Below, piece after piece: positions 3,669 to 19,489 of a stretch of 37,423 nt of DNA. The notes beneath the pieces were generated by a model. It made no database searches. It had not been told where the DNA came from and saw nothing but the letters and a program-made list of their open reading frames with translations. A program made the position numbers and the translations under genes. Position 1 is the first letter of the stretch. Every line of letters starts with the position of its first letter. Source of the stretch: Oscillospiraceae bacterium (GTDB taxonomy: Bacteria > Bacillota > Clostridia > Oscillospirales > JAAYXM01); contig JAFSIZ010000049.1 of NCBI GenBank assembly GCA_017439555.1, positions 1-37,423 on the forward strand, written 5' to 3'.

Positions 3669-4823
3669 ATGCAAATCACAAAAGACATCAGATATATAGG
3701 AGTAAACGATCACGACATTGACCTGTTTGAGGGGCAATATGTTGTGCCGAACGGAATATCATATAATTCATATGCAATAATTGATGAAAAGATTGCAATT
3801 ATGGATTCTGTCGATGCACGCTTTGGAGACGAATGGCTTGCAAACATTGAAAAAGAGCTTTCGGGGCGAAATCCCGATTATCTCATAGTTCAGCATATGG
3901 AGCCCGACCACTCTTCAAACATAGCGAGCTTCGTTGAGAAATATCCGAAGGCAAAGCTTGTTGCATCTGAGCGCGCCTTCGGTATGATGAAGAACTTTTT
4001 CTGCATAGAGCCGGGCGATAACAAAATCGTTGTTGGTGAGGGGGATACTCTGGAGCTCGGCTCACACATACTCACATTCGTAACCGCGCCGATGGTTCAC
4101 TGGCCTGAGGTTATCGTGACCTATGACAATGCGGATAAGGTTCTTTTCTCGGCAGACGGTTTCGGAAAGTTCGGGGCGCTCGATGTCGAAGAGGACTGGG
4201 CTTGTGAGGCAAGAAGATATTATATCGGCATCGTCGGGAAATACGGTGTGCAGGTGCAGGCACTTCTCAAAAAGGCCGCAGCGCTCGATATCGAAATGAT
4301 CTGTCCGCTTCATGGACCGGTGCTGTCGGAAAACCTCGGATATTATATCAATCTCTATGATACCTGGTCAGCCTACAGACCTGAGGAAGAGGGCGTCACA
4401 ATCGCATATACCTCGGTCTATGGCAACACGAAAAAAGCGGCGCTTGCGCTTGCCGAAAAGCTCCGCGCAAACGGATGCCCCAAGGTTGCCGTGAGCGATC
4501 TTGCGCGCTGTGATATGGCAGAGGCTGTTGAGGATGCGTTCCGCTACAGCAAGCTTGTTCTCGCAACGACAACATATAACGGCGATATGTTCCCGTTTAT
4601 GAAGACGTTTATCGATGCGCTCATCGAGCGCAATTTCCAGAACAGAACAGTTGCGTTTATCGAAAACGGAAGCTGGGCACCTGTCGCAGCAAAGAAGATG
4701 CGCGATATGTTTGAGAAGAGCAAGAATATAACCTTTGCGGAAAATTCTGTGAAGATTGTGTCTGCGCTCAATGAAGAAAGCGAAGCCGGGCTCGATGCTC
4801 TTGCAGCAGAGCTTTGCAAATAA
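3669..4823 (+). CDS. fprA: FprA-family flavodiiron protein (A-type flavoprotein)
   Basis: Cytoplasmic oxygen and/or nitric oxide reductase of anaerobes. It is 384 residues long. The N-terminal beta-lactamase-like domain carries a full diiron site: His76, Glu78, Asp80 and His81 in HMEPDH, His144 in MVHWPE, Asp163 in SADGFG and His215 in PLHGP. The C-terminal half from about residue 245 is a flavodoxin domain with the FMN loop TSVYGNT. Start ATG with AAGGAAG upstream. The rubredoxin gene 30 bases downstream is the expected electron donor. Whether O2 or NO is the preferred substrate cannot be read from the sequence. Confidence 0.95.
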   Translation: MQITKDIRYIGVNDHDIDLFEGQYVVPNGISYNSYAIIDEKIAIMDSVDARFGDEWLANIEKELSGRNPDYLIVQHMEPDHSSNIASFVEKYPKAKLVASERAFGMMKNFFCIEPGDNKIVVGEGDTLELGSHILTFVTAPMVHWPEVIVTYDNADKVLFSADGFGKFGALDVEEDWACEARRYYIGIVGKYGVQVQALLKKAAALDIEMICPLHGPVLSENLGYYINLYDTWSAYRPEEEGVTIAYTSVYGNTKKAALALAEKLRANGCPKVAVSDLARCDMAEAVEDAFRYSKLVLATTTYNGDMFPFMKTFIDALIERNFQNRTVAFIENGSWAPVAAKKMRDMFEKSKNITFAENSVKIVSALNEESEAGLDALAAELCK

Positions 4824-6734: not shown

Positions 6735-8066
6735 ATGGCGGTGAATTTTAAAGGCGGATGCCATCCGGACGCTAAAAAGAATGCAACCTATAAAAAACCT
6801 ATAGATGAAATGAAGTCTGCGGCAGAGCTTGTATTTCCGATGCTTATGCACAAGGGCTCACCTTGCGGGCCGATAGTTGAGGTCGGGCAGCGTGTGCTTG
6901 TCGGGCAGAAGATTGCGGAATCGACAGCGGAGGATTCCGCGCCGATACATTCCTCGGTTTCGGGAACGGTAAAGGCGATAGAGCCGCGCATTAATATAGA
7001 CGGAGAGAAAATTCTCTCGGTTGTGATTGAAAACGATTTTGCAGATGAGGAGACAGAGCCTGCGGCCGACTATGACAGATTTCGCACGCTTTCGGCAAAA
7101 GAGCTTGCAAGCCTTGTGCGTGAGGCAGGCATCGTCGGGCTCGGCGGCTCGGCGCGTCCTCTTTCTCAGAAGATTCTTGCCGCTGAAGGCAGAGTTGACA
7201 CGCTTATTATCAACGGCGCCGAGTGTGAGCCATATGTAACTGCAGACAACAGAATGATGGTCGAATACAGTGAAGAGCTTTATGACGGTGCGATGCTGAT
7301 AGCAAAGGCTCTTGAAATCCGGGATATAACGCTTGCCATCGAATCGGACAAGTCTCACGCGATAGCGGAGATGCACCGCGTCTTTGCAAAGAAGACGGGC
7401 ATAAAGCTTTGCGTTGTCCACACGAAATATCCCCAGGGGGCAGAGCGCCAGGTGATAAAATCCGTCACGCGGCGCGAGGTACCGCCGGACGGTACGCCTT
7501 ATGACATCGGAGTTATAACCGTCAATGTTTCGACAGCCGTTGCCGTTTCGCGCGCAGTGCGCGAGGGAAAGCCGCTTACGACACGCATTATAACGGTTTC
7601 CGGCTCTGCTGTTGCCAATCCCAAAAACCTTATAGTCAAGCTCGGCACGCCGATCGGGGATCTCATTGAGGCGTGCGGAGGTTTTCTCGAGCATCCCGAG
7701 CGCGTAATTGCAGGCGGCCCGATGATGGGTAAAACGCAATATTCGCTTGATGCTCCCGTTGTGAAGGGTACAAATGCCGTTCTGGCATTTTGTCGCGGCG
7801 AGGACAAGACAGAGCCTGAGGGCGTGTGTATACATTGCGGAAAATGCGTCGGCGTCTGCCCGATGCAGCTTATGCCGGTCTATATCTACCGCGCTTATAA
7901 GGCTGATAAGCTTTCTGAATGTGTAAAGCTCAATGTGAGCGATTGCACGGAGTGTGGCTGCTGTGCATATATATGCCCGGCGAGGATTTCGCTTGTTTCT
8001 GCGTTCCGCGCCGTCAAGAAAAAGATTGAAGACGTAAAGAAGGAGGAAAAGGTCGATGAAGCTTGA
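6735..8066 (+). CDS. rnfC: RnfC subunit of Rnf-type ion-translocating ferredoxin:NAD oxidoreductase
   Basis: Peripheral cytoplasmic subunit that binds NADH and FMN, 443 residues, first gene of the operon. The N-terminal barrel-sandwich domain and the SLBB-like middle are recognisable. AECEPYVTADNRMM near 165-180 matches the family. The two C-terminal ferredoxin clusters are complete: Cys365, 368, 371, 375 and Cys404, 407, 410, 414. The glycine-rich nucleotide/flavin loop near residue 135 reads GLGGSARPLSQK, where the family normally has GLGGAxFPTxxK. The Phe-Pro is replaced by Arg-Pro, an unusual change next to the flavin. Start ATG follows GAGAGGTGA. It overlaps rnfD by 11 bases. Confidence 0.93.
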   Translation: MAVNFKGGCHPDAKKNATYKKPIDEMKSAAELVFPMLMHKGSPCGPIVEVGQRVLVGQKIAESTAEDSAPIHSSVSGTVKAIEPRINIDGEKILSVVIENDFADEETEPAADYDRFRTLSAKELASLVREAGIVGLGGSARPLSQKILAAEGRVDTLIINGAECEPYVTADNRMMVEYSEELYDGAMLIAKALEIRDITLAIESDKSHAIAEMHRVFAKKTGIKLCVVHTKYPQGAERQVIKSVTRREVPPDGTPYDIGVITVNVSTAVAVSRAVREGKPLTTRIITVSGSAVANPKNLIVKLGTPIGDLIEACGGFLEHPERVIAGGPMMGKTQYSLDAPVVKGTNAVLAFCRGEDKTEPEGVCIHCGKCVGVCPMQLMPVYIYRAYKADKLSECVKLNVSDCTECGCCAYICPARISLVSAFRAVKKKIEDVKKEEKVDEA

Positions 8067-9135
8067 TAAGAAACGTCTGCTTATGTCCTCCTCTCCACAC
8101 GTGCAGACAGAGGAAAACACGCGCTCGATTATGATGGATGTTATAATTGCGCTACTGTTTCCGCTGATTATGGCAGTATACTTTTTCGGTTGGCGCGCGG
8201 CAGCGCTCACGGTTGTTTCCGTTGCGTCAAGTGTTTTCGCTGAATGGCTTTATTGCCGCATTGCGAAAAAGCCGCATACGATCGGGGATTTTTCGGCTGC
8301 GGTAACAGGCATGCTTATCGCGATGTGCCTTCCTGTATCTGTGCCGATGTGGATTCCCGTTGTCGGTTCGTTTTTTGCCATCGTTGTTGTAAAACAGCTC
8401 TATGGCGGCCTTGGAAAGAATTTCCTGAACCCTGCGCTCACGGCGCGTGCGTTTCTCTATTGCTGGCCGTCGCTTATCTCAGTGTGGATAAAGCCGAACC
8501 TCGGAGAAAATGCACTCGGCATATTCAGCAGCGTGAGCCGCTCATCCCTTTCGCCCGATGTTATCGCATCGGTGACGCCGCTTGCAAAGATGAAGCTCGG
8601 CTATCTTCCGGGCGTTGCGATGGGTAAGATTGATGTGATATCGGGCCTTCGCGATGTTGTTGTCGGAAATGTTGCAGGCTGCATAGGCGAGGTGTCCGCG
8701 GTGGTAATCATCGCCGCGGCAATATATCTCATCATACGCCGCGTCATAACGATTCATATTCCGCTTGCATATGTCGGAACGGTCGCTGTTCTGACGTTCC
8801 TGTTCCCTCGCGGCGGAAATGCGTCGTGGCAGTGGATGATATACAGCGTTTGCTCGGGCGGGCTTCTGTTTGCTGCAGTATTTATGGCGACGGATTATGC
8901 AACGAGCCCCGTAACAGCGCGCGGCAGAGTGATATATGGAATCGGCTGTGGCGTGCTGACTGTGCTTATAAGATATTTCGGCACGTATAATGAGGGCGTT
9001 ACCTATGCGATCCTCATTATGAACTGTTGCGCGTGCTTTATGGATCGCGTGGTACGTCCGCGCCGTTTCGGAGTTATGAAGAAAAAGGGAAAGGCGGTGA
9101 GTGTGGATGAAAGCAAAGATTCAGGAGAAGCTTAA
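8056..9135 (+). CDS. rnfD: RnfD subunit (flavin-bearing membrane protein)
   Basis: An integral membrane subunit of 359 residues with about nine or ten hydrophobic helices. In RnfD/NqrB a covalent FMN is attached to Thr of an SGAT-type motif. Here the aligned stretch is IASVTPLAKMK, so Thr174 and the following PLA are kept, but SGA is replaced by ASV. Other family landmarks are present: KNFLNPALTARAFL near 121-133 and TDYATSPVTARGR in the C-terminal half, ending with a MDRVVRPRRFG tail. Start ATG has AAGGAGG nine bases upstream, inside rnfC. It overlaps rnfG by 29 bases, indicating translational coupling. Flavin attachment would need an ApbE transferase, which is not in this window. Confidence 0.92.
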   Translation: MKLDKKRLLMSSSPHVQTEENTRSIMMDVIIALLFPLIMAVYFFGWRAAALTVVSVASSVFAEWLYCRIAKKPHTIGDFSAAVTGMLIAMCLPVSVPMWIPVVGSFFAIVVVKQLYGGLGKNFLNPALTARAFLYCWPSLISVWIKPNLGENALGIFSSVSRSSLSPDVIASVTPLAKMKLGYLPGVAMGKIDVISGLRDVVVGNVAGCIGEVSAVVIIAAAIYLIIRRVITIHIPLAYVGTVAVLTFLFPRGGNASWQWMIYSVCSGGLLFAAVFMATDYATSPVTARGRVIYGIGCGVLTVLIRYFGTYNEGVTYAILIMNCCACFMDRVVRPRRFGVMKKKGKAVSVDESKDSGEA

Positions 9136-9742
9136 GGCAGCTTTCACACTTCCGTCTCTTTCGGCGGAACAGAAGAAAGAGCTTTTGCGCTCGTCTCTTA
9201 TCCTGCTCGCGATATGCGCTTCGTGCGCACTGCTTCTCTCGGGCGTCTATTCGCTTGTCGAGGGCTTTATTGAAGACAACCGCGAAGCACCGATTCTTGC
9301 GGCGGCTGCGCGCACGCTCCCTGCTGACAGCCATATCCGCGCCGATTTTGACACGGATGAGGTGAATAACGTTTCCGCTGTCTATGAGGCAAGGACGGGT
9401 GACGAGCTCATAGGTCATTGTGTCCACGCAACTGCAGAGGACTATGACGGCGAGATGACAGTCGTTGTGGCTGTGGATAAAGAGGGCGCGGTTGTCGCTG
9501 TGGAGGTCGTTTCGATGCCTGAGGGTGTCGGCACGAAGGTCCGTGATACTTCGTTCCTTTCCCAGTTTGTTTCGAAGACGGGCAAGGTTGAGTGTGTCGG
9601 TGAAATCACCGATGAGGGGCAGGTTGTCGCCGTTTCGGGTGCAACTGCTTCATCCGATGCCGTTACAGAATGTGTGAACGGCGCTTTGGCCGCGGTTTCC
9701 CAGATCTATGCAGAAAAGGCAAAGGAGGCGGCTGTCGGATGA
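9107..9742 (+). CDS. rnfG: RnfG subunit (covalent-FMN electron carrier)
   Basis: A single-pass membrane protein of 211 residues. The helix at about 28-48 is followed by an extracytoplasmic FMN_bind domain. The covalent-FMN motif SGAT is fully conserved, with Thr at about residue 180 in VSGATASSDAV. EGVGTKVRD is the family's second landmark. The frame can be read from GTG 9101, but GGCGGTGA is better spaced for ATG 9107. It lies between rnfD and rnfE, overlapping both, as in standard rnfCDGEAB operons. In contrast to several partners, this subunit looks entirely canonical. Confidence 0.92.
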   Translation: MKAKIQEKLKAAFTLPSLSAEQKKELLRSSLILLAICASCALLLSGVYSLVEGFIEDNREAPILAAAARTLPADSHIRADFDTDEVNNVSAVYEARTGDELIGHCVHATAEDYDGEMTVVVAVDKEGAVVAVEVVSMPEGVGTKVRDTSFLSQFVSKTGKVECVGEITDEGQVVAVSGATASSDAVTECVNGALAAVSQIYAEKAKEAAVG

Positions 9743-10347
9743 AAAAGCTTCTTGGATATATCAAACAAAGTGTTGTTGACAAAAACTCGGCACTCGTGCT
9801 TCTGCTCGGGCTGTGTCCGCTTCTGATGATGTCCTCCTCGCTACTGACGGGGCTTGTCTCGGGCGCGGCTGCGATGATTGTGCTCGTGCTTTCGGGTGTG
9901 GTGATTTCGCTGCTCGGGCGCGTTATTCCTAATGGAATCAAAGATGTTTCATATATGGTCATAACTGCATTTTTCGTTGCAATATGCGAGCTTTTGCTCT
10001 TTGCGTTTCTGCCATCATTGCGCACAGCCCTTGGCATATACCTGCCGCTTATAACGGTCAGTGGGCTTGCGTTTGCCGCGGCAGAGCGCGCAGACAACGC
10101 CACGGTAGGTGCGGCGGCGCTTGGCGGCTTATCGCTCGGGCTCGGATATTTTGCGGTGATATTCATAATGTCATTTATCCGTGAGCTGTTTGGAAACGGA
10201 ACGCTTTTCGGATTCCGCATAATCCCTGAGGAATATGCGATAAGGCTCATAACAACGCCGTTCGGAGCACTGTTTTTGTTCGGTATTTTCGTGGCAGTGT
10301 TCCGTGCTGTCGCTTTGCGTGCGGAGAAAGGGGAGGTTGAAAAATGA
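9739..10347 (+). CDS. rnfE: RnfE subunit (membrane), missing one of two cluster cysteines
   Basis: A six-helix membrane protein of 202 residues. In Rnf/Nqr, RnfA and RnfE each give two cysteines to a [2Fe-2S] cluster in the middle of the membrane. The first is present here: Cys26 in LLGLCPLL. The second normally lies in a 'PLIxxNCxxxGRAEA' stretch, but here the aligned residues read PLITVSGLAFAAAE, so Cys is replaced by Gly109 and the preceding Asn by Ser. The rest aligns well, including FIRELFGNGTLFG. AAAGGAGG precedes the ATG at 9739. The frame is open further upstream, but that part has no family similarity. ATGA overlaps at both ends couple it to rnfG and rnfA. Confidence 0.92.
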   Translation: MKKLLGYIKQSVVDKNSALVLLLGLCPLLMMSSSLLTGLVSGAAAMIVLVLSGVVISLLGRVIPNGIKDVSYMVITAFFVAICELLLFAFLPSLRTALGIYLPLITVSGLAFAAAERADNATVGAAALGGLSLGLGYFAVIFIMSFIRELFGNGTLFGFRIIPEEYAIRLITTPFGALFLFGIFVAVFRAVALRAEKGEVEK

Positions 10348-10931
10348 GGCTTTTAAGTCTGCTTTCGATTGCGGCAGGGGCTGTTCTTGCCGAAAATATA
10401 ATCTTTTCAAACCTTCTCGGAATAACTCCGTTCCTCAAGGAGAGCCGCGGCATTCGCCCGGCTTTGAGACAAGGTGTGACAACTGCGTTTGCTTCTGTTT
10501 TTGCATCACTTCTTTCGTGGCTTTTAGACACGCTTATCATTCGCCCTGCAGGGATTGAATATCTGAGAAGCGTTGTGTTTGTGCTTGTCGCGGTCAGCGG
10601 TGTTAAGCTCGCGGAGGTTATGATTTCAAAAAGATTCCCGAAGCTTTCCGAAAAGCTCGACATTTCATTTTCTCTCGTCGCGGCAAACACGGCACTTCTG
10701 GGCGTTATGCTTCTTGCATCAGAGCGCAGCTACACCTTTTTTGAGTCGCTGTTTTTCGGTGTGTTCGCAGGGCTTGGATATCTCGCTGTCTGCGTTTTGT
10801 TCGCGTCAGTGAGGGAGAAGCTTGAATATTCGGACACTCCCGGGTTTCTTGAGGGGTTGCCGATTGCGCTTATCACGGCGGCGCTTGTAGCGCTTGCGTT
10901 TTCCGGTTTTGCCGGTATAAAGTTTATATAG
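10344..10931 (+). CDS. rnfA: RnfA subunit (membrane), lacking both cluster cysteines
   Basis: A six-helix membrane protein of 195 residues and homologous to RnfE, with which it forms the pseudo-symmetric core of the complex. In the family, Cys in FLGLCPF and Cys in TTNCAVLGV bind the intramembrane [2Fe-2S] cluster. Here the same positions read LLGITPFL (Thr28) and AANTALLGV (Thr116), so both ligands are Thr. The remainder follows the family closely, including ITAALVALAFSGFAG at the C-terminus. Cysteines elsewhere, such as the one in LAVCVLFA, are not at ligand positions. The frame is intact and overlaps rnfE by four bases. See the finding on the missing cluster. Confidence 0.92.
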   Translation: MRLLSLLSIAAGAVLAENIIFSNLLGITPFLKESRGIRPALRQGVTTAFASVFASLLSWLLDTLIIRPAGIEYLRSVVFVLVAVSGVKLAEVMISKRFPKLSEKLDISFSLVAANTALLGVMLLASERSYTFFESLFFGVFAGLGYLAVCVLFASVREKLEYSDTPGFLEGLPIALITAALVALAFSGFAGIKFI

Positions 10932-10943
10932 GAGAGCATAGCT

Positions 10944-11711
10944 ATGGATATTGTTTTGAATATTCTCCTTGCGCTCGGCATACTTTCGGCGCTCGGCGTT
11001 ATTGCAGGCGCAGTATGCGCCCTTGCCGCAATAAAGCTCGGGGCAGGAAAGGAAGATGCCGATAAGGTAAAGGCGGAAACGGAAGAAGCTGTGTGTGCTG
11101 AGGATAAAGAAAACGCGCGTACCGTGGCGTTTGTGAAATGCCGCGGCAATGAAGCTGAGTTTAAGTATACCTATGCAGGTGAGCGCGATTGCTTTTCTGC
11201 AAACCTTCTTGCCGGAGGTGCAAAGGCCTGCGGATATTCCTGCCTCGGGCTCGGCTCGTGTGCGGCGGTTTGCCCGAACGGTGCGATATCTGTAGAAAAC
11301 GGAGTTGCGTTTGTCAATGAAGAAAAATGCGACGGCTGCGGCAGATGTGCTGCCGCCTGTCCTCGCGGCGTCATTGCGCTTGTTCCGCAGAATTCTGCAT
11401 ATAAGGTTGCCTGCTCAAATTGCGAGCTTGGCTCAAAAACGCGCAAAAATTGCGAGGTCGGATGCATAGGATGCCTCGCCTGCGCAAAGAATTGTAAATA
11501 TGATGCCGTCATAATAGCCGACAACCTTGCAACTATCGATTATTCAAAGTGTGTGGGCTGCGGAGAATGTGCGGAGGCTTGTCCTCGCGGCATAATAACT
11601 GCTCCGCCTGTGCCTGAGGTTGAAGAGGAGTTTGACGAATCTGAATATTTTTCTCTGCAGGTAGACGGTGCAGAGGGCGAGGAAAAGGAAGAAATAGCTT
11701 CTGAGGAATAG
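10944..11711 (+). CDS. rnfB: RnfB subunit lacking the N-terminal PF04060-type Fe-S domain
   Basis: The ferredoxin-accepting subunit, 255 residues, with an N-terminal membrane helix (about 7-31). It carries several 4Fe-4S sets: Cys96/100/106/110, Cys129/132/135/139, the run Cys157-Cys184, and Cys203/206/209/213. In usual RnfB the helix is followed by a domain with a CGxCGxxGC motif that binds the membrane-proximal cluster. Here the helix is joined by a charged linker of about 30 residues, with a lone Cys51, directly to the VAFVKCRGN segment. That first domain is absent. The C-terminal 35 residues are acidic. Start ATG after GGAGAG. Last gene of the rnf set; the next gene follows 12 bases later. 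Confidence 0.9.
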   Translation: MDIVLNILLALGILSALGVIAGAVCALAAIKLGAGKEDADKVKAETEEAVCAEDKENARTVAFVKCRGNEAEFKYTYAGERDCFSANLLAGGAKACGYSCLGLGSCAAVCPNGAISVENGVAFVNEEKCDGCGRCAAACPRGVIALVPQNSAYKVACSNCELGSKTRKNCEVGCIGCLACAKNCKYDAVIIADNLATIDYSKCVGCGECAEACPRGIITAPPVPEVEEEFDESEYFSLQVDGAEGEEKEEIASEE

Positions 11712-11723
11712 GAGAGTGAACAG

Positions 11724-12818
11724 GTGAGAAGAACACGCAGAGCATCAAGAAGATACAGAGGCTCGCGCGGCGGAATAGGTATAGTGATTCCGTTGCTCAT
11801 TGTGTTGTGTATCATTGCCGCAGGTGTTTTGTATTTTGTGAATGAAAATATGGCTTTCACAAAGGACGGAACGTTGTTTGAAGCCTGGGGTGCAAAAAAA
11901 GAACCTGAGATTGTGGATGCAAACCTCGTAATAGAGGAGGATGCAGGCGAAGAAGACAAGACCGCGGAAGACGGGGCCGAGGGAATTGAGACGGAGGCTT
12001 CCGAGGAAACGGAGGCGCCCGTTGCGCCGCCTGCCGATGCGGTCAGAGCGCGATTTTTGCCGATAGGCACAGTCAAGAGCACAGAGCTGTTTAATGCCGC
12101 TATCGCGGAAATACCTGCGGATGAGAAGATAAACACGCTTGTGCTTGAGGTCAAGGCTGAGGACGGCACGCTTGCTTTCGGAAGTGAACACGAGTTTGTG
12201 GCTGATAAGCAGATCGTCGGAGATGACAGTGTGCTCTCGCAGGTGATAGAAAAGGCGAAGAGTGCAGGCTACAGAGTATCGCTCTTTATGTCGTGCTTCA
12301 AAGACAACGGCGCGGCGAGGAACAACTTCAAGCATTCCGTGTTGGCCAAGGGCGGAGGTGTCTGGCGTGATGAATTTGAAACGCGCTGGCTTTCACCGTA
12401 TTCAGAAGAGGCAAGGCTGTACCTCACAGATATAATAAAGAAGCTTGCAGCGCTTGGACCAAACGAAATAATCCTGTCAAATATCTCGTTCCCTGTTGCA
12501 GGAAGAACGGATATGATTGATTACGGCGAAGGAGTCAGCTCAAAACCAGAGGCGCTTTCAGTCTTTATAAGCGAAGCGCAGAGCGCGGCAGGAAACGTTG
12601 CTGTCTCAGCGGTATATGAGAATTACAATGAAGCTTACAGTCCTTTGGGCGGTCAGAAGCCTGAACTGTTTCAGGATTTTGCAAGGATATATATATACGC
12701 CAAAGATTCTCAGGCTCTGCGCTCCTTCGAGGAAGGCAAAGCTTTGTTTGGTGATATGAATGTGAGCATTATTCCTGTCGGGAAAGCCGCAGTAGATGAA
12801 CAGTTTGTTATAAAATAA
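11724..12818 (+). CDS. Membrane-anchored DUF4015-like putative glycoside hydrolase
   Basis: A 364-residue protein with a very basic N-terminus (RRTRRASRRYRGSR), one membrane helix at about 18-40, then an acidic Glu/Asp/Thr-rich linker at about 60-105. The rest is an extracytoplasmic domain resembling PF13200 (putative glycosyl hydrolase, TIM-barrel-like). Landmarks are NTLVLEVKAEDGTL, a strand YRVSLFMSCFKD, GGGVWRDEFETRWLSPYSEEAR and NEIILSNISFP. The family's usual FDYIRFP strand is replaced by SNISFP, so the acidic residue expected there is missing. No activity is established for this family. GTG start, with GGAGAG upstream. It follows rnfB by 12 bases, so it is probably transcribed with the Rnf operon, though no link is known. 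Confidence 0.65.
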   Translation: MRRTRRASRRYRGSRGGIGIVIPLLIVLCIIAAGVLYFVNENMAFTKDGTLFEAWGAKKEPEIVDANLVIEEDAGEEDKTAEDGAEGIETEASEETEAPVAPPADAVRARFLPIGTVKSTELFNAAIAEIPADEKINTLVLEVKAEDGTLAFGSEHEFVADKQIVGDDSVLSQVIEKAKSAGYRVSLFMSCFKDNGAARNNFKHSVLAKGGGVWRDEFETRWLSPYSEEARLYLTDIIKKLAALGPNEIILSNISFPVAGRTDMIDYGEGVSSKPEALSVFISEAQSAAGNVAVSAVYENYNEAYSPLGGQKPELFQDFARIYIYAKDSQALRSFEEGKALFGDMNVSIIPVGKAAVDEQFVIK

Positions 12819-17615: not shown

Positions 17616-18545
17616 ATGGCTAAAAAAGCATATTTCTTTATTGATGATGTTATCTGGACCTTGCGCGATATCACGAGGCAGCGCCCGAAGTCTCTTTTTG
17701 ACAATCCGTTTCTGAAGCTTTTAAAAACCGCACATGAGAGATACGGACTGAAGGTGCAGCTCAATCTTTTCTGGAGAACAGACTATTATTACGGAAACGA
17801 TGAGTTCACTCTTGCAGAGGTTACCGATGCATATAAGGCAGAGTGGGAAGCGGCGTCGGATTGGCTGAAGCTTTCTTTCCACGCAAAGCAGGAGTTTCCC
17901 GATTATCCCCACATCAATGCTACATATGAAGATGTAAAGACTATTTTTGAAAACATCCGCCGTGAGGTTATACGTTTTGCAGGAGAAAAGAGCTTCACCT
18001 ATGGTGTAACTCCCCACTGGGGGCCTATGAGCCTTGCAGGTGTGCAGGCGCTTTATGACTGCGGTGTAAGGATTATCTGGTGCTCCGACGGTGAGAAGTA
18101 TGAGTATAACGGCGATCCGAACTCACTTCCTTACGGTCACGCGATGCGCCTTCTCAACAACCGTCAGCCTGAGACGGGGCTCTACTCACGCGGAAGCCGT
18201 AATGTTGCAATAAACAACTCTCTTGCAGGTCACAACCACGTTACTACAGAGCAGAGGGAATGGATGAAGGGGACATTCAGATACGTTATCGATGAAAAGA
18301 CAGGTATGGGCTTCAAAGAAGTCTGCACAATCAGCCCTCTCGATACAATTCCCTATGAAGAAATTGAAAACGATATGCGGCCTCATCTTGATAATGAATA
18401 CTTCTGTATAGCAACACACGAGCAGTATTTCTATCCGGACTATCTTGCATATCAGCCGGAATATTCCGATAAGATATTCAGAATGAGCGAGATATTCAAG
18501 GAAAACGGATATGAATTTTTCTATCTTGAAGAAATTGTAAAGTAA
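17616..18545 (+). CDS. Polysaccharide-deacetylase-like protein, tandem copy 1
   Basis: A 309-residue protein with no signal peptide or membrane helix, hence cytoplasmic. I do not recognise a named family, but the plan suggests the glycoside hydrolase/deacetylase (NodB-like) barrel. An early acidic pair follows a strand (FFIDDV, Asp10-Asp11), His89 and Glu93 lie in SFHAKQEFPDYP, His134 in GVTPHWGP, and His268-Glu269 in THEQYFYPDY. All of these are conserved in the neighbouring copy and could bind a metal. Sugar deacetylation is inference only. It has its own promoter and AAAGGAG. The second copy starts 14 bases after its stop, so both are on one transcript. Confidence 0.55.
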   Translation: MAKKAYFFIDDVIWTLRDITRQRPKSLFDNPFLKLLKTAHERYGLKVQLNLFWRTDYYYGNDEFTLAEVTDAYKAEWEAASDWLKLSFHAKQEFPDYPHINATYEDVKTIFENIRREVIRFAGEKSFTYGVTPHWGPMSLAGVQALYDCGVRIIWCSDGEKYEYNGDPNSLPYGHAMRLLNNRQPETGLYSRGSRNVAINNSLAGHNHVTTEQREWMKGTFRYVIDEKTGMGFKEVCTISPLDTIPYEEIENDMRPHLDNEYFCIATHEQYFYPDYLAYQPEYSDKIFRMSEIFKENGYEFFYLEEIVK

Positions 18546-18559
18546 AGGAGCGTTTTGAA

Positions 18560-19489
18560 ATGGCAAAGAAAGTGTATTTTTTTATTGACGATGTAATCTG
18601 GACCTTGCGCGACCTCACAAGAGAAAAGCCGAAGTCTCTTTTTGACAACCCGTTCCTCGGTATGCTCAAGACGGCGCACGACCGCTATGGCCTCAAGACT
18701 CAGCTCAACCTCTTCTGGAGAACAGACTATTTCTATGGCAACGATGAGTTCACTCTCGCTGATGTTACAGACGCATACAAGGCGGAATGGGAAGAAGCGT
18801 CTGATTGGCTCAAGCTTGCATTCCACGCAAAACAGGAATTTCCCGATTATCCCCATGTAAATGTAAAATATGAGGATATGAAGGCGATTTTTGAGAACAT
18901 CAAAAAAGAGGTTATCCGCTTCGCCGGAGAGAAGAGCTTTACATATGGCGTAACACCTCACTGGGGTCCTGTCAGCTATGATGGCGTCCGTGCTCTTTAT
19001 GATTGCGGAGTCCGCATTCTGTGGTGCACCTGCGGAGACAAATATGAATACAACGGCGACCCGAACTCACTTCCCTATGGCCACGCGATGCGCCTTCTCA
19101 ACAACCGCCAGCCTGATGCAGGCGTATATTCGCGCGGAAGCCGTGATGTTGCAATAAACAACTCCATCGCTTGCTACAACCACCTCACGACTGAGCAGAC
19201 AGAATGGATGCGCGGAAGCTTCAGATATGTTGTTGATGAAAAGACAGGTATGGGCTTCAAACAATTCGGTTCAATAAGCGCGCTCAATCTTATCCCATAT
19301 GATGAAATCGCCGACGAGCTTGCTCCGTGTCTTGAGGATGAATACCTCTGCATCGGAAATCACGAGCAATATTTCTATCCGGACTATCTTGCATATCAGC
19401 CGGACTATGCCGAGAAGATCTACAAAATGGCAGAAATAGTCCACGAGAACGGATATGAAAACTTCTTCATTGACGAGCTTGTAAAATAA
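18560..19489 (+). CDS. Polysaccharide-deacetylase-like protein, tandem copy 2
   Basis: Also 309 residues, aligning with the preceding gene without a single gap. A hand count gives about 71 differences, so roughly 77% identity. Differences are concentrated in the last third (residues 233-309), while the first third is nearly invariant. All candidate metal ligands (Asp10, Asp11, His89, Glu93, His134, His268, Glu269) are kept. Among changed positions are Asp to Cys at 158, His to Tyr at 206 and His to Cys at 257, which could alter substrate choice. AAAGGAG precedes the ATG. A strong terminator follows. The gap-free alignment with a retained site points to an older duplication held by selection. 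Confidence 0.55.
   Translation: MAKKVYFFIDDVIWTLRDLTREKPKSLFDNPFLGMLKTAHDRYGLKTQLNLFWRTDYFYGNDEFTLADVTDAYKAEWEEASDWLKLAFHAKQEFPDYPHVNVKYEDMKAIFENIKKEVIRFAGEKSFTYGVTPHWGPVSYDGVRALYDCGVRILWCTCGDKYEYNGDPNSLPYGHAMRLLNNRQPDAGVYSRGSRDVAINNSIACYNHLTTEQTEWMRGSFRYVVDEKTGMGFKQFGSISALNLIPYDEIADELAPCLEDEYLCIGNHEQYFYPDYLAYQPDYAEKIYKMAEIVHENGYENFFIDELVK

Follow-up and report, generated by a model that had tools for sequence, protein, structure and literature searches.

An rnf operon of the Oscillospirales without the one-cluster domain of RnfB and with most ligands of the buried [2Fe-2S] cluster replaced

The closest described systems to the one considered here are the Rnf complexes of C. tetanomorphum (7zc6) and A. 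woodii (9eri). The U-shaped path of electrons through Rnf is known from few structures and point mutants. It involves a mobile domain of RnfB with a single cluster, the PF04060 domain, which is called FdI or B8 in the solved structures and is reported to span residues 35-95 in C. tetanomorphum (PMC9588780) or residues 30-100 (PMC11889175). It also involves the buried [2Fe-2S] cluster AE1, for which the ligands in A. woodii are given as RnfA C25/C113 and RnfE C25/C108 (PMC11889175). Cysteine mutants of either AE1 or B8 are reported not to grow in A. woodii, and the purified AE1 or B8 variants to show no ferredoxin-dependent NAD+ reduction (PMC11889175).

The window (the whole stretch of DNA analysed, 37,423 nucleotides) carries an rnf operon that shares with both systems the six subunits, the cofactor residues of RnfC, RnfD and RnfG, and an RnfB with membrane helix and polyferredoxin. 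Both complexes have the mobile FdI/B8 domain and that of A. woodii has four AE1 cysteines, whereas the domain and three of these cysteines are missing from the operon of the window. Searches of the open-licence PMC literature brought up no report of an RnfB lacking B8 or of a cysteine-less RnfA.

The operon of the window

The operon has homologues of RnfC, D, G, E, A and B, encoded in the order rnfC-D-G-E-A-B, in one direction, at 6735-11711, with all six ORFs intact. Its features, together with the gene that follows, are:

6735-8066, + strand: RnfC (TIGR01945 rnfC, E 2.9e-151), with intact NADH/FMN domain and two intact [4Fe-4S] motifs
8056-9135, + strand: RnfD (TIGR01946 rnfD, E 1.4e-90; alignment to solved RnfD)
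9107-9742, + strand: RnfG (PF04205, E 3.3e-11; alignment to solved RnfG)
9739-10347, + strand: RnfE (PF02508; alignments)
10344-10931, + strand: RnfA (PF02508; alignments; model matched to PDB)
10944-11711, + strand: RnfB without the PF04060/FdI/B8 domain (Pfam, structure alignment)
10947-11042, + strand: membrane helix of RnfB, residues 2-33 (predicted helix)
11043-11126, + strand: linker of RnfB, residues 34-61, at the expected place of the one-cluster domain (family-mate alignment)
11127-11600, + strand: polyferredoxin of RnfB, residues 62-219 (Pfam Fer4 matches; genus alignment)
11724-12818, + strand: DUF4015 membrane-anchored protein (PF13200), a synteny marker

The DUF4015 gene is the next after rnfB, or the next after rnfA where rnfB is lost. 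NCBIfam cut-offs are passed only by RnfC (503.9 vs 245.95) and RnfD (304 vs 207.05), the scores of RnfG, RnfE, RnfA and RnfB lying below theirs. An identity as Na+-NQR is rejected, the RnfC that scores 503.9 for rnfC reaching only 67 for nqrA (cut-off 321.05); a Pfam search for NqrF among the genes of the operon found none. Elsewhere in the window, a flavodiiron-type protein (ODP beta-lactamase fold plus flavodoxin) is encoded upstream of the operon at 3669-4823, and 17616-18545 and 18560-19489 hold a tandem pair of homologous 309-aa proteins that have no Pfam match.

RnfB is an intact ORF of 255 amino acids that runs unbroken through the junction between helix and polyferredoxin. The first-pass annotation had described about 30 charged residues with a single cysteine after the helix and then directly the ferredoxin region, and the description is accurate: the helix, which carries C25, is followed by a charged linker of 28 residues (34-61, AGKEDADKVKAETEEAVCAEDKENARTV) with C51 as its single cysteine, and this leads straight into the polyferredoxin. 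Its principal claim, the absence of the PF04060 domain, is likewise borne out. In a Pfam search to E<=10, in which HMMER filters remove most matches above about E 0.1, RnfB matched 17 families, all of ferredoxin type, and PF04060 was not among them. Alignment starts at residue 60 against residue 99 of C. tetanomorphum RnfB and at residue 45 against residue 85 of A. woodii RnfB, and the one-cluster domain is therefore missing. The annotation had also considered that the domain might be encoded elsewhere in the operon. Profile searches ruled this out for operon and genome alike, PF04060 being absent from the 84%-complete assembly (5 of 14 control genomes gave a match), in which no second RnfB was found either. 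The polyferredoxin has 20 cysteines, invariant in four members of the genus and enough for five [4Fe-4S] clusters, and five is also the number reported outside FdI in C. tetanomorphum RnfB (PMC9588780). An AlphaFold model of RnfB gives a helix at 2-33 (block pLDDT 74, 70, 56), the remainder being unusable (mean 43).

The companion claim, that the ligands of the buried cluster are lost from RnfA and RnfE, holds for three of the four, as scored by alignment columns. RnfA has threonines at both positions, T28 (10425-10427) and T116 (10689-10691), where canonical copies have C/C, and RnfE has G109 (10063-10065) in place of its second ligand but keeps the first, C26 (9814-9816), which is present in four of the five sampled genus members. 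The fold of RnfA is predicted to be unchanged despite the replacements (mean pLDDT 69.8, which is moderate, and pTM 0.65; TM 0.67 to 9eri_A and 0.69 to 8ahx_A), and another metal site may exist at AE1.

The NADH side is kept. RnfC has all 8 cluster cysteines, with the same motifs in 21 of 21 aligned operons; RnfD has the riboflavin-site residues N122 and D280 and the covalent-FMN threonine T174 (codon 8575-8577), in a motif that reads SVTPL, against SATPL in the family mate L067; RnfG has the SGAT motif with T180 (codon 9644-9646) and the FMN-pocket tyrosine Y113. One ApbE, the transferase that goes with RnfG's flavin site (E 5.4e-72), is encoded in the genome of the window (G000), where a search for a second FMN_bind protein returned RnfG as the sole match. 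Presence of ApbE and of the RnfG flavin site agree in 22 of 24 genomes, where for G027, G106, G262 and G337 the site was scored solely by an FMN_bind match. The two disagreements are G307, which has the motif but lacks ApbE, and G198, which has ApbE but no RnfG. Judging from the retained SGAT motif of RnfG and from ApbE, the flavin side is probably alive in the window.

Distribution and history of the losses

PF04060 is missing in 5 of 5 sampled genomes of the window's genus and present in 4 of 4 sampled family mates of other genera, the two of these with operons inspected being canonical. Of the four AE1 cysteines, none of the five genus members keeps more than one, and some keep 0. The window and three congeners, all separate genomes, have a B8-less RnfB, while the fourth congener, G120 (L066), has at the expected place of rnfB an ORF of 57 aa with helix and tail only. 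In G046 and G080 the operon resembles that of the window, with the SGAT motif of RnfG and ApbE both kept; in G093 RnfG is cut to 80 aa and its flavin domain is gone; in G120 SGAT has become VGSD. Within the genus ApbE is missing from exactly these last two genomes. The members show steps of decay. Constraint has shifted: mean identity inside the genus is 0.65 for RnfC and 0.67 for RnfD but 0.41 for RnfE and 0.42 for RnfA, unlike the canonical family pair (one pair only), where it is 0.64 for C, 0.71 for D, 0.72 for E and 0.78 for A.

In a sample of 394 genomes of the order, PF02508 was found in 333 and PF04060 in 342. Among genomes with weak PF02508 (best E above 1e-50, a cut chosen after viewing the list), 15 of 18 are without PF04060, against 2 of 315 of the others (counted by eye); of these two, G189 has a B8-less RnfB and G065 is only 75% complete. 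The survey that the first-pass annotation had proposed was carried out on 120 operons, a set targeted by low PF02508 score, kinship, a second PF02508 pair or an RnfB-pattern scan, not a random one. The B8 domain is present in 85 of the 86 operons with all four AE1 cysteines, in 4 of the 6 with two or three, and in 0 of the 28 with none or one. Among the last, B8-less RnfB occurs in the window, L063, L064, L065 and L234, and the other 23 have no RnfB in the fetched stretch, whole genomes being searched as well for first-copy losers but not for second copies; they include L229, whose match is a ferredoxin-like protein of 38 bits about 3.4 kb from rnfA. Since L084-L162 came from the RnfB-pattern scan, they cannot show absence of RnfB. 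The count leaves out 17 operons unscorable at all four positions, L083 as a duplicate of L064, and G065; G368 and G189 are counted as L216 and L213, and one locus set contributed only 13 operons so that none was entered twice.

Loss of B8 and loss of the RnfA/RnfE ligands co-occur far beyond chance (Fisher test, with relatives treated as independent). The coordinated loss proposed earlier stands in this correlated form, over the 120 operons and the 394 genomes, but strict coordination is ruled out: G189 has no B8 yet all four AE1 cysteines, its RnfG having also lost SGAT, while B8 is kept with one or two ligands changed in L215 (the second copy of G018), L220 (G187), L212 (G241) and L151. In L212 and L151 VFA replaces VNC at the second ligand of RnfE, while B8 is retained along with the three remaining cysteines. 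Nor is the loss confined to a contiguous electron-transfer segment, as had been supposed, for relatives also lose the RnfG flavin site, ApbE, the whole of RnfB and the whole of RnfG, and RnfC is missing from some second copies. A check on hydrogenase (PF02906 in 18 of 20 genomes) was not informative on the cause of loss.

In evolutionary terms, the suggestion that these operons define a distinct Rnf subclass is contradicted by the tree of RnfC plus RnfD, on which the losses are scattered, as expected from convergent reduction and not from one subclass. With 47 rows the losers need 6 changes, 4 of them forced by well-supported branches; with 70 rows, including second copies but omitting L078, they need 7, with 6 so forced. 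The genus of the window and the two family mates with canonical operons form a group with an SH-aLRT support of 99%, and the losers of the genus coded f6g9 group at 100% with L069, which is canonical and carries the same genus code. The placement of several other losers, which have long branches, is unsure. A single clade of cluster-less Rnf was rejected (AU p 4e-39, by a quick method on the 47-row tree with long branches present). An independent-pairs sign test had 4 usable pairs, too few for 0.05, and, the trait being compared with itself, gave a count of pairs only.

Among four close f6g9 genomes (dS 0.1-0.5), dN/dS is 0.09-0.15 for RnfC and 0.06-0.12 for RnfD, and, over six pairs, 0.11-0.14 for the ligand-less RnfA, with 0.23-0.33 for the core of RnfE. 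The f6g9 RnfA that lacks both ligands is thus under purifying selection. Saturation of dS within the genus of the window makes dN/dS there, under 0.36 where computable, weak evidence.

Three or four PF02508 matches were found in 28 genomes, and in 19 of these a divergent second pair is present, complete or in part. Six of the second-copy loci (L218, L223, L225, L226, L233 and L219) hold rnfD, rnfE and rnfA side by side, without any rnfC, rnfG or rnfB being found there, and in five of the six (not L219) a ribulose-phosphate-epimerase-like gene lies upstream, confirmed by Pfam in L218 and L226. A gene of the latter kind also precedes rnfC in L078. Where a second copy includes RnfC, it retains the two cluster motifs.

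Other unusual forms were met along the way. L076, L077, L214 and L229, from three families of the order, are related RnfB-less, cluster-less operons in which RnfG is very long (its ORFs have 411-451 aa; SGAT twice in L214, once in L076), and G368 has such a long-RnfG, RnfB-less operon beside canonical Rnf in the same genome. RnfG is replaced in L081 (6476-7225, - strand) and L082 (4937-5878, + strand) by a helix followed by low-complexity Pro/Thr/Asp/Glu-rich repeats; in L072-L075 no RnfG gene was found, and RnfE has a low-complexity N-terminal extension of ~290 residues. The f13 second copies L224, L227 and L230 have RnfD ORFs of 562-634 aa and no separate RnfE was found there, these ORFs possibly being RnfD-RnfE fusions.

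What the reduced complex may do

What remains of an Rnf in which two clusters on the ferredoxin side have gone? The parts lost sit between ferredoxin and the outside flavin and those kept lead from NADH to the flavins, and the simplest explanation, towards which we incline somewhat, is an Rnf without its ferredoxin-to-membrane limb, the remainder of which would be an NADH-side module for electron export. The limb would comprise the mobile FdI/B8 shuttle of RnfB and the buried [2Fe-2S] AE1 of RnfA/RnfE, and the complex of the window should then be unable to run the U-shaped path from ferredoxin to NAD+ or to couple that path to ion pumping. Less surely, electrons might pass from NADH to the FMN and two [4Fe-4S] of RnfC, on to the riboflavin/FMN of RnfD, and then to the FMN that RnfG binds covalently outside the membrane, before reaching some extracytosolic acceptor. 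The role left to RnfA, RnfE and the docked RnfB polyferredoxin would be that of a less constrained scaffold. Reduction has progressed further in relatives, where RnfG flavin and ApbE are lost and RnfB is cut to its helix or deleted.

Several observations stand against this reading: G093 and G120, of the same genus, have lost the RnfG flavin site and ApbE; RnfG is the only FMN_bind match in G000, with no candidate for a downstream acceptor; and G189 lost B8 while its AE1 ligands stayed. The 20 cysteines of RnfB and the persistence of RnfE C26 also seem more than a mere scaffold would need.

The main rival is that the membrane core is now non-redox, serving in transport, sensing or as an assembly platform, while the other redox parts slowly decay. 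The stages that lead down to rnfD-E-A alone argue that the core in the membrane can still be of use when its redox partners are absent, five of the six such loci lying downstream of the epimerase-like gene; the selection on ligand-less f6g9 RnfA and on the core of RnfE and the ability of RnfG and RnfB to shrink to their helices point the same way. In the window and its genus, however, conservation is highest in RnfC and RnfD, whose cofactor residues are retained, and we consider this rival unlikely there, if deserving of attention.

A short circuit is more improbable still. The RnfB polyferredoxin, docked on RnfC, would feed it directly, making the complex a non-pumping ferredoxin:NAD+ oxidoreductase; the invariance of the RnfB cysteines would suit this, as would the firm association of RnfB and RnfC reported for C. 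tetanomorphum, with nearest carriers 25 A apart (PMC9588780). Yet 25 to over 30 A, the distances given in the structural reports, is too far without rearrangement (PMC9588780, PMC11889175), an RnfB of this kind is missing altogether from G120 and from most of the other operons poor in ligands, and the flavins of RnfG and RnfD, with ApbE, would be useless. Simple pseudogene decay of a non-functional operon might be read from the faster change of RnfA, RnfE and RnfG and the truncated RnfG and RnfB of congeners, but it is very improbable in view of the six intact ORFs of the window, the unsaturated f6g9 dN/dS well under 1, the genus values (limited by saturated dS) and the retention of the same parts in several lineages. 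An assembly or frame artefact, for which only the draft state of the genome (200 contigs) would speak, is negligible given the intact rnfB of the window and its counterparts in the separate genomes of congeners.

The series as a whole invites a broader proposal, which we advance tentatively and regard as falling short of probable. Rnf cores without ion-pump wiring would form a widespread, repeatedly evolved class in the order, ranging from NADH-only complexes (C-D-G-E-A, with RnfB B8-less or absent) to D-E-A alone, in which the stripped core would perform NADH-driven electron export or plain membrane transport and not redox pumping. The series would then present living stages of the rnfB-loss step proposed on the way to Na+-NQR, a proposal that we take to be that of Reyes-Prieto et al.

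Whatever the function, the operons amount to a natural and repeated deletion in which two clusters said to exchange electrons vanish together while the NADH side stays, and this co-loss supports the U-shaped path independently. They also provide natural complexes for testing the role of the RnfA/RnfE core without its cluster. Furthermore, annotation of an 'Rnf complex' from gene names in gut Clostridia can overstate who conserves energy with ferredoxin.

Comparison with other Rnf-like systems

A shortened RnfB is also reported for Thermotoga maritima, where the protein is said to be FdI only (PMC9588780); the situation is the converse, the shuttle alone being kept there and all except the shuttle here. 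The core of Na+-NQR is described as homologous to RnfA/D/E/G, and its evolution, according to one proposal, started when a duplicated rnf operon lost rnfB (PMC4014512). The second copies found here look like that proposed state, though their RnfC, where present, keeps its two cluster motifs. Na+-NQR gained NqrF and, as reported, keeps the buried [2Fe-2S] (PMC12174285), whereas the complex of the window keeps the RnfC clusters and has lost most of the buried ligands. Finally, the NQR/RNF-like two-subunit clusters of Meheust et al. 2021 are described as an RnfD fused to PF00175 with an RnfG-like subunit (PMC8238504, PMC10979944). The window differs in having RnfC as its NADH subunit, in keeping RnfA and RnfE and in an RnfD that matches PF03116 only; with those clusters it would share the one-way route from NAD(P)H to an extracytosolic flavin that is proposed here for the window.
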